A DNA stretch of 64,000 nt from the NCBI RefSeq assembly GCF_003952725.1, contig NZ_CP032509.1, forward strand, positions 2,318,001 through 2,382,000, in the 5' to 3' direction. The notes under the pieces were generated by a model. That model saw only the letters and a program-made list of their open reading frames with translations, made no database searches and was not told the DNA's origin. This DNA comes from Georhizobium profundi. Its GTDB lineage: Bacteria > Pseudomonadota > Alphaproteobacteria > Rhizobiales > Rhizobiaceae. Shown piece by piece: positions 45,858 to 51,927 of the stretch; within the stretch, counting starts at the first letter, position 1, and the number at the start of each line of letters is the position of its first letter. Both the position numbers and the translations under genes were made by a program.

Positions 45858-47474
45858 ATGCGGTTTGCTGAACTGCCCATTGGCGAGGCCGAAGATGCGC
45901 TTCTTGCCCATTCGGTGAAAGCGGCTGCGGTGCGGTTGCGCAAGGGCCACCGGCTGACGGCGCAGGATATTGCAGACCTCGATGCGGCCGGCGTTGCGAC
46001 GGTCTTTGCGGTGGCGCTCGATGCTGGCGACGAGCCGGAGGACCCGGCTGCCGCCCGGCTTGCAGCCGCGCTTCATTCCGACCACGTGACGATCGGCGAG
46101 GCGGCGACGGGACGCGTCAACATCTTCGCTGCGGCTTCCGGGCTCTTCCGGGTCGATGCAGCGGGCGTCGACGCGCTGAACCGGGTGGATCCTGCCATCA
46201 CCTTCGCCTGCTTGAAAGATCGAAGCCCCGTGAATGCCGGGGACATAGTCTCGACGATCAAGATCATTCCACTTGCCGTCGCCGGCCCGGCGCTTGCAGA
46301 AGCCACGATGGCGATCGCCCAAACGGGATTGATCGGTGTCACGCCGTTTCGCTCTGCCAAGGTCGCGCTCATCGCGACCACGCTGCCAAGCCTGAAACCG
46401 AGCGTGATGGACAAGACCAGGGCGCTGCTGGAAGTGCGGCTTGCGCCTTCCGGCAGCACGCTTTTGAGTGAAACACGCGTGGCGCATGAAACCGGTGTGC
46501 TTGCTGAGGCGCTGCGCAACACGGTGAATGGTGCCGATATTCTCATCGTGTTCGGTGCTTCGGCCGTCGCGGACCCTTACGATGTGATCCCCGAGGCGAT
46601 CCGGCAGGCGGGCGGTCAGGTCGAGGCTGTCGGCATGCCGGTCGATCCCGGCAATCTGCTGGTCCTGGGTGCGATCGACGGCAAGCCGGTGATCGGTGCG
46701 CCGGGCTGCGCGCGCAGCCCCAAGGAAAATGGGTTTGACTGGGTGCTGGCGCGCATTCTTGCCGGTGAAACCGTGACGCGCGCGGACATTGCCGGGATGG
46801 GCGTCGGCGGGCTCCTGACGGAGATCGCGAGCCGGCCGCAGCCGCGCATCGTCCGGCAGTATGTGTCGCAGCCAACGGTTGGTGGCGTGCTGCTTGCAGC
46901 CGGCAAGGCAAGCCGCATGGGCATCGATGGTGCGCACAAACTTCTGGCGGAGTTCGATGGCGAAGCGCTGGTGTGGCGAACGGCCCGGGCGGGACTGGAC
47001 GCCGGCCTGACGCCGCTGATCGCCGTGACCGGCCACCGCACAGATGAGGTGACGGCGGCGCTTGCCGGGCTCGATCTGGTGACGCTCACCAACCCGGCTT
47101 ATGCCAGCGGCATGGCATCCTCGCTGAAGGCCGGGATCGCCGCGCTCGACGCCGATATCGACGGGGCGATCATCCTCCTCGCCGACATGCCGGGTATAGG
47201 CCCGGGCGAGATCGGTAAGCTCATTAATGCTTTCCAGCGCGCCGGCGGCGAGGCGATCGTGCGGGCGGCGAGCGGCGAGAAGCGGGGAAACCCGGTTATC
47301 CTTCCGCGGTCGACCTTCGATGCGGTGCTGGCACTGGAGGGAGACGTCGGCGCGCGCCAGATCGTGGAGACGAGCGGGCTTCGGATCATCGATGTCGATA
47401 TCGGGCAGGCGGCGCAGCTCGACGTGGACACGCCAGAAGCGGTGGCCGCCGCCGGCGGCGTGCTCAGGGCCTGA
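45858..47474 (+). CDS. molybdopterin-binding domain fused to MocA-like cytidylyltransferase
   Basis: A 538-residue fusion. The N-terminal 330 residues form a MoeA/MoaB-like molybdopterin-binding region (LRKGHRLTAQDIADLDAAG, then IFGASAVADPYDVIP-like FGASAVADPYDVI and a PGCARSPKENGFD stretch). The C-terminal 200 residues are a MobA/MocA nucleotidyltransferase with VLLAAGKASRMG near residue 350 and LLADMPGIG. MocA makes molybdopterin cytosine dinucleotide, the cofactor of xanthine dehydrogenase-family enzymes. It closes the maturation run, 4 bp after the previous gene. Confidence 0.9.
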   Translation: MRFAELPIGEAEDALLAHSVKAAAVRLRKGHRLTAQDIADLDAAGVATVFAVALDAGDEPEDPAAARLAAALHSDHVTIGEAATGRVNIFAAASGLFRVDAAGVDALNRVDPAITFACLKDRSPVNAGDIVSTIKIIPLAVAGPALAEATMAIAQTGLIGVTPFRSAKVALIATTLPSLKPSVMDKTRALLEVRLAPSGSTLLSETRVAHETGVLAEALRNTVNGADILIVFGASAVADPYDVIPEAIRQAGGQVEAVGMPVDPGNLLVLGAIDGKPVIGAPGCARSPKENGFDWVLARILAGETVTRADIAGMGVGGLLTEIASRPQPRIVRQYVSQPTVGGVLLAAGKASRMGIDGAHKLLAEFDGEALVWRTARAGLDAGLTPLIAVTGHRTDEVTAALAGLDLVTLTNPAYASGMASSLKAGIAALDADIDGAIILLADMPGIGPGEIGKLINAFQRAGGEAIVRAASGEKRGNPVILPRSTFDAVLALEGDVGARQIVETSGLRIIDVDIGQAAQLDVDTPEAVAAAGGVLRA

Positions 47475-47634
47475 GGGTCGGCTTGACGTCCGTTGGGCGG
47501 TTGCGTCGGCAGCGCTCGGAACAGTAGCGCACCTCGTCCCAGGTCTTTGCCCAGCTCTTGCGCCAGACCATGGGCCGTCCGCAGGCCTGGCAGGGCTTTT
47601 CCGGCAGGTCGGATTTCTTGCGCATCTTCGCCAT
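47464..47634 (-). CDS. DUF2256 zinc-ribbon protein
   Basis: A 56-residue protein of the DUF2256 family. It has four cysteines in CQAC and CSERC around the WRKSWAKTWDEVRYC core, which should bind zinc. Function is unknown; relatives often neighbour photolyase or cryptochrome genes. It ends inside the last 11 bases of the convergent MocA-fusion gene. ATG 47634 or 47625 can start it. Confidence 0.85.
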   Translation of the reverse strand: MAKMRKKSDLPEKPCQACGRPMVWRKSWAKTWDEVRYCSERCRRNRPTDVKPTLRP

Positions 47635-47681
47635 CGCGTGGAAGATAAACGCCGCATGACGCACTTCAAGCGAGGCACGAG

Positions 47682-48032
47682 ATGGACCAGGTCGATATCG
47701 AGGAATTCTTCGCGCCGATCGGCCCGGTGCGGGTTAGATCGATGTTCGGCGGCAAGGGCATCTATGCCGATGGCCGTATCATCGCGCTCGAAGTGAGTGG
47801 CGACCTGTTGCTGAAAGCCGATGCCGACAGCGCACCCCGGTTCGCGGAGGCGGGCGCCACGCAATGGGTCTATGCAGGCCGCCCGGGTCGTAAGGCCATC
47901 GCCATGCCCTACTGGTCGGTGCCCGAAGATGCGCTCGACGACATCGATGCCCGGGCCGAATGGCTGAGCCTTGCGATCGAGGCGGCTGAGCGATCGGAGC
48001 GGGCAAAGCGGCGTCGCCCACCGCGGCGCTAG
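47682..48032 (+). CDS. TfoX N-terminal domain protein
   Basis: A 116-residue protein consisting of a TfoX/Sxy N-terminal domain (VRVRSMFGGKGIYADGRIIALE and PYWSVPEDALDD). In gammaproteobacteria full TfoX activates competence genes with CRP; the isolated N-terminal domain in alphaproteobacteria has no settled role. It is divergent from the DUF2256 gene across 47 bp. Confidence 0.88.
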   Translation: MDQVDIEEFFAPIGPVRVRSMFGGKGIYADGRIIALEVSGDLLLKADADSAPRFAEAGATQWVYAGRPGRKAIAMPYWSVPEDALDDIDARAEWLSLAIEAAERSERAKRRRPPRR

Positions 48033-48103
48033 TTTCCACGAGAGCGGTATTCACTTTTTGTTCACTATCGCCGGGATCGGCCGCGCGGTTCGTTGAAATG
48101 CGA

Positions 48104-48132
48104 TTTACAACAGAACAAAAACAGAACATAGT
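48104..48132 (+). promoter_or_regulatory. SOS promoter with perfect LexA box
   Basis: GAAC-AAAAACA-GAAC (48113-48127) matches the alphaproteobacterial LexA box GAAC-N7-GAAC exactly. It fills the spacer of a likely promoter, TTTACA (48104-48109) and CATAGT (48127-48132), 17 bp apart. It lies 36 bp before the start of the 27-residue peptide gene. Confidence 0.75.
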
Positions 48133-48162
48133 GAGATCAGATAAGGAAAAGGAGATATCCAG

Positions 48163-48246
48163 ATGATCATGCTTCGTGATGTTGCCGCGCTAGCCTCCAT
48201 GTCTGTCTTCATTGCCGGTTTCTCCGTCGTCCTCATGGCGATGTGA
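48163..48246 (+). CDS. 27-residue SOS-controlled membrane peptide
   Basis: A 27-codon gene with a strong AAAAGGAG ribosome-binding site 8 bases before ATG 48163. The peptide has a charged start (MIMLRD) followed by a single hydrophobic helix (VAALASMSVFIAGFSVVLMA), so it should insert in the inner membrane. It is too short for usual gene calling. A perfect LexA box lies just upstream, predicting induction by DNA damage. A functional precedent is Caulobacter SidA, a 29-residue SOS-induced membrane inhibitor of cell division; homology to it is not claimed. dnaE starts 207 bp downstream. Confidence 0.75.
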   Translation: MIMLRDVAALASMSVFIAGFSVVLMAM

Positions 48247-48453
48247 TCAGCGAACCCCACTGCCGACCCTCTCTAGGCCGCTGATGCCTGTGGATGGTGG
48301 GGACAAGTTTCTCGGAAGGCGGTTTCCGCCCTCCGTGGGTGGACAGGCCCCGACCGCATGCCGACTATCGCACAGGCGATTCTGTTCAGACGCATGGCTA
48401 ACCCATGGGTACGAACGCGCCTCGAAATTTTCTGATCGAGCGGGTGTGGCGGT

Positions 48454-51927
<3,474 letters not shown>

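Follow-up and report, generated by a model that had tools for sequence, protein, structure and literature searches.

A LexA-type box and a 27-codon gene precede dnaE

The window (the whole 64,000-nucleotide stretch of Georhizobium profundi DNA analysed here) carries dnaE (48454-51927, + strand), encoding the alpha subunit of replicative DNA polymerase III. Its product was identified as the replicative DnaE1 and not DnaE2 (NF004226, 1484.5 bits; cut-off 1002). Upstream of dnaE, its conserved neighbour, lies a short gene (48163-48246, +) with an ATG at 48163, 27 codons and a stop, preceded by the Shine-Dalgarno sequence AGGAG (48150-48154, +). The translated 27-residue peptide is MIMLRDVAALASMSVFIAGFSVVLMAM; conservation, coding bias and homology, described below, mark it as a SidA-type micropeptide gene. 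Further upstream is the alphaproteobacterial LexA-type box GAACAAAAACAGAAC, an exact GAAC-N7-GAAC (48113-48127, +) recognised from the sequence and from its conservation in the family. The box sits inside a sigma-70-like promoter, made up of a -35-like hexamer TTTACA (48104-48109, +; promoter scan and family fit), a 17-nt spacer and a -10-like hexamer CATAGT (48127-48132, +; promoter scan) that shares one base with the box. TTTACA/CATAGT was the sole promoter-like pair in a scan of positions 47950-48520 (one found versus 0.2 expected), and no terminator-like site was found by scanning the same interval. A degenerate third half-site, GATC (48135-48138, +), follows one 11-nt step past the second GAAC. 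The initial annotation had described an exact GAAC-N7-GAAC site within a plausible promoter, followed by a 27-codon gene upstream of dnaE, and both descriptions hold.

Taken alone, without conservation, the GAAC-N7-GAAC box is weak evidence, because chance yields such boxes: the window contains five exact copies versus 1.62 expected, a number reached in 5 of 100 shuffles. Genome-wide there are 131 exact boxes versus 74 for the reversed pattern. The genome does encode lexA, and an exact box begins 75 nt before the match to its DNA-binding domain. Four family peptides scanned against Pfam and NCBIfam returned no match, nor did an Rfam scan of 47900-48600, which counts only weakly against a known antisense RNA. 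The closest named DNA matches to the region came from Shinella and Sinorhizobium (77-79% identity).

The peptide, its box and their spacing are conserved at dnaE

Conservation was assessed in 151 genomes of the same family, including the source genome and two others of its genus. A search with the DnaE N-terminus matched in 150 of these, and small ORFs upstream of dnaE were scored with an iterated position matrix, which separated 88 loci (score >38) from the other 62 (score <19). The peptide was therefore present within 800 nt upstream of dnaE in 88/150 genomes, the source genome included, and an exact box lay within 120 nt upstream of the peptide start in 78 of these 88 copies. By comparison, no exact box was found upstream of dnaE at any of the 62 peptide-free loci (800 nt searched; shorter in three, at contig ends). 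The dnaE-linked peptides range from 27 to 43 residues, with 68/88 having 28; the start codon is ATG in 87/88 and a Shine-Dalgarno-like motif is present in 78/88. The first base of the box is most often 47-50 nt from the ATG. The helix contains the recurrent motif R-D-x-x-[AS]-[FL]-x-S-[IVM]-x-x-F, in which the D and the F each occur in at least 90% of the 59 rows used for profile construction. Conservation of the peptide, the box and their position before dnaE in relatives, which the initial annotation had named as one way to check its proposal, was thus observed, and the combined conservation of peptide, box and spacing raises the observation in the window far above chance.

The promoter context is shared as well. 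The consensus of 106 family boxes reads TTGAca, 3 nt, GAACAAAAAnAGAACA. Of these boxes, 51 are accompanied by a promoter-like pair with three mismatches or fewer, versus approximately three in shuffles, and the best-fit -35 element sits where it does in the window, at -9 from the box, in 72 of the 106. A third half-site 11 nt on is an exact GAAC in 9 of 78 loci and differs by no more than one base in 49 of 78. Overlapping pairs of exact boxes 11 nt apart (GAAC-N7-GAAC-N7-GAAC) were seen in many copies (for example L024, L028, L045, L050, L358-L360 and L468), possibly accommodating two LexA dimers or acting as a tuned repressor site. A subgroup of 32-residue peptides (L148, L149, L154, L157 and L161) is extended at the C-terminus by W(A/V)(D/E)IL..., similar to the form found in other families of the order.

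The peptide frame is under purifying selection

Within 23 non-overlapping pairs of related 28-residue copies, pS was 0.416 and pN was 0.088 (ratio 0.21, Fisher p 3e-53). In the other frames of the same DNA, pN exceeded pS (0.168 versus 0.153 in +1; 0.206 versus 0.045 in +2). Substitutions are strongly synonymous in the peptide frame alone, the reverse of what the initial annotation had said would speak against its proposal, namely a frame unconserved or lacking synonymous bias. Comparison of the window peptide with that of a sister species (L020) involved few changes: 4.5 synonymous changes over 19.3 sites and 4.5 nonsynonymous changes over 61.7 sites, a ratio of approximately 0.3, with the amino-acid changes confined to hydrophobic residues.

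Peptide and box are kept together away from dnaE

A 59-row profile, built from part of the 88 dnaE-linked peptides, was run over the 62 genomes without the peptide at dnaE and found a copy (E<0.005) in 52. When one copy per genome was inspected, an exact box was present upstream in 29 of the first 30 and in 19 of the other 22. Across the family, 140 of 150 genomes carry a copy and 126 of the 140 have an exact box upstream; four of the 14 copies without one are among the 52 found by the profile, and the membership of one of these four (G254) is doubtful. For 47 of the 62 genomes the copy lies more than 20 kb from dnaE on the same contig, or else on a different one. Two of the 52 copies (G343 and G282) sit 0.8-1.5 kb upstream of dnaE, and for three (G341, G249 and G344) the dnaE stretch stops at a contig edge.

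A second neighbour recurs. A LolD-like C-terminus, recognised by sequence motif, precedes 20 of the 30 relocated copies (L348-L377) and 36 of the 88 dnaE-linked copies by no more than 800 nt, the latter count being limited by the stretch covered. lolD may be a more faithful neighbour of the peptide than dnaE is, because the peptide often stays behind lolD where dnaE is elsewhere. In the window, the region upstream of the box holds what look by eye like a short zinc-ribbon protein (47464-47664, -) and a TfoX-like protein (47682-48032, +); since these stand in place of lolD, the lolD side of the synteny seems to be broken here.

The profile search found no convincing copy in 10 of the 150 family genomes. 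Seven of these are 2.0 Mb or smaller and one is only 76% complete. The idea that peptide loss is restricted to genomes without lexA fitted poorly: a LexA domain match is kept in seven of the ten peptide-free genomes and absent in three, and was present in 10/10 peptide-bearing control genomes. At seven loci (L067, L089, L099, L128, L140, L164 and L167) a lolD-like gene stands directly before dnaE with neither peptide nor exact box. For six of these the profile found no convincing copy in the genome, giving the appearance of clean losses, while the genome of the seventh (L128, genome G270) retains a copy elsewhere.

The peptide is homologous to the Caulobacter dnaE-locus peptide

We take C. crescentus sidA to be CC1927. 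The dnaE gene of this organism is CC1926 (PMC1839093), sidA carries the identifier CCNA_02004 (PMC10769358), and SidA is 29 residues long (PMC4211646). A DnaE search of 40 of the 80 genomes reached via Caulobacter DivK matched in 39, giving 39 mostly Caulobacterales dnaE loci. In the Caulobacter genomes a box and a 29-residue ORF are followed directly by dnaE, in the same order as in the window, and this ORF is almost certainly sidA; the peptide compared here was taken from Caulobacter sp. genomes other than C. crescentus. Related small hydrophobic ORFs precede dnaE in Phenylobacterium, Brevundimonas, Asticcacaulis, Parvibaculaceae and Roseibium; those of Stappia, Maricaulis and Woodsholea are more divergent. 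The box is present only in a one-mismatch form at several of the loci. Among the 39 loci, no SidA-like ORF was found before dnaE in Methyloceanibacter, Filomicrobium and one Caulobacteraceae genome. A LolD-like C-terminus (motif) lies within 900 nt upstream of dnaE at 7 of the 26 loci with a SidA-like ORF, a count again limited by the stretch covered.

The 59 family rows were aligned by hhalign against 22 hand-picked rows from the 39 loci (20 Caulobacterales plus Maricaulis and Woodsholea), giving a probability of 90.9, an E-value of 1.2e-6 and a score of 25.8. In 300 column shuffles the mean score was 7.5 and the maximum 21.3, so that none reached 25.8. To avoid any selection of ORFs, an HMM trained solely on the family rows was applied to all small ORFs preceding dnaE, with opposite-strand decoys and E-values calculated for 10,000 sequences. 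Within the 39 loci it produced 7 matches at E<=0.01 and 32 at E<=1, versus 0 and 0 on the opposite strand; Maricaulis, Woodsholea and Stappia (E 1.2) are among the seven loci without a match at E<=1. Judged by these profiles, the rhizobial and Caulobacter dnaE-locus peptides are homologous. The initial annotation had offered SidA as an analogy, and the relationship now appears closer than that (hhalign 90.9; HMM 32/39).

The resemblance to SidA of C. crescentus extends to size (approximately 29 residues; 27 here), a single hydrophobic helix, a LexA-type box before the ORF, a place directly upstream of dnaE and profile homology. Counted from the conserved Arg, the window peptide and the Caulobacter peptide are identical at 6/23 residues, with the Caulobacter segment FVWMMC corresponding to FIAGFS in the window peptide. 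Because this identity is low, the protein partner could have changed relative to that of SidA.

Distribution beyond the family

Among 65 loci in other families of the order, the family HMM gave 22 matches at E<=0.01 and 31 at E<=1, versus 0 and 1 on the opposite strand. The lone opposite-strand match (L399; genome G095, family f11) is a SidA-like ORF, ..LMVRDVAALGALTAFATMLAVVVGGA, that shares the motif and is divergent to dnaE, with two GTTC-N7-GTTC boxes between them; it looks like a divergently oriented copy. Only one of 25 loci elsewhere in the class matched, at E<=0.01 and at E<=1 alike, with 0 and 0 on the opposite strand. From the HMM matches set against the opposite-strand decoys, we conclude that the peptide family, as judged by sequence profile, is clear in Hyphomicrobiales and Caulobacterales and is mostly unrecognisable to this profile further out.

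A box together with a small hydrophobic ORF was present at 31 of the 65 order-level loci, in 21 of 40 families; a few of these 31 ORFs are without the motif and may be due to chance. A class-wide profile search matched 129 of 385 genomes at E<=1, mostly short noise, and only three matches adjoining dnaE by coordinates (G035, G664 and G712) were retained. A search of the phylum gave matches at E<=0.005 in 22 of 398 genomes; 19 of these matches were in frames of at most 125 residues, all from the family or the order, and the remaining three were in frames of 425-583 residues. The 59-row profile was needed, a single-sequence search of the order having returned only two dnaE-linked relatives (G023 and G187). 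Single peptides queried by tblastn against plasmids and phages gave no match; this negative is uninformative for queries of 27-28 residues, because the plasmid collection does contain a copy.

Named rhizobia and earlier literature

In Sinorhizobium meliloti Ak57, a 28-residue peptide, MADFVRDLAAFASMSLFIVSISVIALGL, and two overlapping exact boxes occupy the gap between a lolD-type ATPase gene and dnaE. The order of the window (box, peptide, dnaE) recurs in Shinella sp. PSBB067 and Sinorhizobium sp. C101. No gene is listed in the lolD-dnaE gap of the Ak57 record, which fits the initial annotation's expectation that ordinary gene calling would miss the peptide, although gene listings in that collection are known to have gaps.

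A ribosome-profiling study of S. meliloti placed a novel small ORF, sORF25, within the dnaE1 5'-UTR and suggested that some sORFs of this sort may be uORFs (PMC10117765). Matched by position, sORF25 is probably the S. meliloti 28-residue peptide found here, since it occupies the same place as MADFVRDLAAFASMSLFIVSISVIALGL between lolD and dnaE. In contrast to the present reading, LexA, SOS and SidA have no occurrences in the main text of that article (PMC10117765). A 2012 comparative study of alphaproteobacteria names dnaE as SOS-regulated, with reference to C. crescentus, and includes it with the genes that its own comparison identified (PMC3323433); the same box had thus presumably been noticed. 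Because dnaE is named there as SOS-regulated, the box before dnaE is probably not new; its assignment to a peptide gene may be. The parts of that study consulted assign LexA control to dnaE itself and leave a micropeptide unmentioned (PMC3323433). The open-access literature searched yielded neither a description of SidA outside Caulobacter nor an SOS division inhibitor of rhizobia; subscription papers lay outside this scope and no priority is claimed. The small membrane division inhibitors DidA, YneA, SosA and ChiZ resemble the proposed peptide in being damage-induced, small, membrane-located and directed at late division (PMC13396833, PMC4211646). This likeness is one of description, with no claim of homology, and DidA has 71 residues versus 27 here.

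A model for SOS-dependent division arrest, and its alternatives

We consider it quite likely that 48163-48246 is the rhizobial orthologue of sidA, made upon LexA cleavage and blocking division via FtsW. The gene, its box and promoter-like sequence, its coding conservation, its synteny and its homology to the Caulobacter peptide are observations; from them we infer that LexA binds the box, that the gene is induced, and that the peptide inserts into the membrane, targets FtsW and arrests division. The evidence thus supports the initial annotation's reading of an SOS-induced micropeptide that arrests division or targets the membrane. LexA bound to the box inside the promoter would keep the micropeptide gene silent. 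Following DNA damage, active RecA would lead to LexA cleavage and the 27-residue peptide would be made. It would enter the membrane as one transmembrane helix, with the charged N-terminus (R5, D6) beside the helix, and bind the late divisome, holding back septation until repair ends. FtsW is the presumed target because of the homology to SidA, which acts on FtsW in Caulobacter; there, AlphaFold 3 models in a 2026 paper, which are not of high confidence, place SidA on FtsW TM7 (PMC13396833). Induction may also increase dnaE expression, since the scan found no terminator-like site between the peptide gene and dnaE.

That same arrangement could be read as a leader peptide (uORF), the translation of which tunes dnaE in cis and the amino acids of which are irrelevant in trans. 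The position before dnaE with no terminator-like site between, the finding of sORF25 in the S. meliloti dnaE1 5'-UTR and the suggestion that some such sORFs are uORFs (PMC10117765), and the earlier attribution of LexA control to dnaE itself, in C. crescentus (PMC3323433), all suit it. A leader peptide should remain attached to the gene it regulates, but in 47 of the 62 genomes without the peptide at dnaE a copy stands elsewhere, mostly with its box, and the frequent retention of lolD when dnaE is elsewhere likewise argues against a dnaE leader. Together with purifying selection at the amino-acid level and homology to an inhibitor acting in trans, this makes a leader peptide very unlikely.

TisB is an SOS-induced membrane-active peptide, and toxins of its kind are marked by control through antisense RNA. 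DinQ of E. coli is an SOS-regulated single-transmembrane peptide (PMC3567139), and the length, single hydrophobic helix and SOS box at the present locus would all fit a peptide of the TisB/DinQ kind, which depolarises the membrane, slows growth and favours persistence with no specificity for the divisome. Homology and synteny with SidA point away from this explanation, as does the helix motif, which suggests a specific protein partner; we regard it as unlikely. It is scarcely credible, finally, that a chance ORF lies beside a LexA box that is itself fortuitous or serves dnaE only: such boxes do arise by chance and tiny hydrophobic ORFs are common, but the frame-specific synonymous bias, the family conservation (140/150), the HMM matches compared with opposite-strand decoys and the keeping together of peptide and box away from dnaE contradict it.

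Returning to the orthologue of sidA, a broader model is also probable, with slightly more reserve. SidA would be an old SOS checkpoint peptide of Alphaproteobacteria rather than one peculiar to Caulobacter, often located between lolD and dnaE, nearly universal in the rhizobial family sampled (140/150), S. meliloti included, and overlooked since it has fewer than 35 codons; the LexA site before dnaE would mainly drive the peptide and not the polymerase, and is worth re-reading as part of a peptide gene. The approximately 140 family copies offer a natural set for locating FtsW-contacting residues. For S. meliloti and its relatives the peptide is a concrete candidate for an SOS division inhibitor, with the Caulobacter mechanism as the hypothesis. 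Because a relative of SidA is conserved across the rhizobial family, these results suggest that rhizobia share a hidden DNA-damage brake on cell division, and the halting of rhizobial division under DNA damage becomes directly testable.
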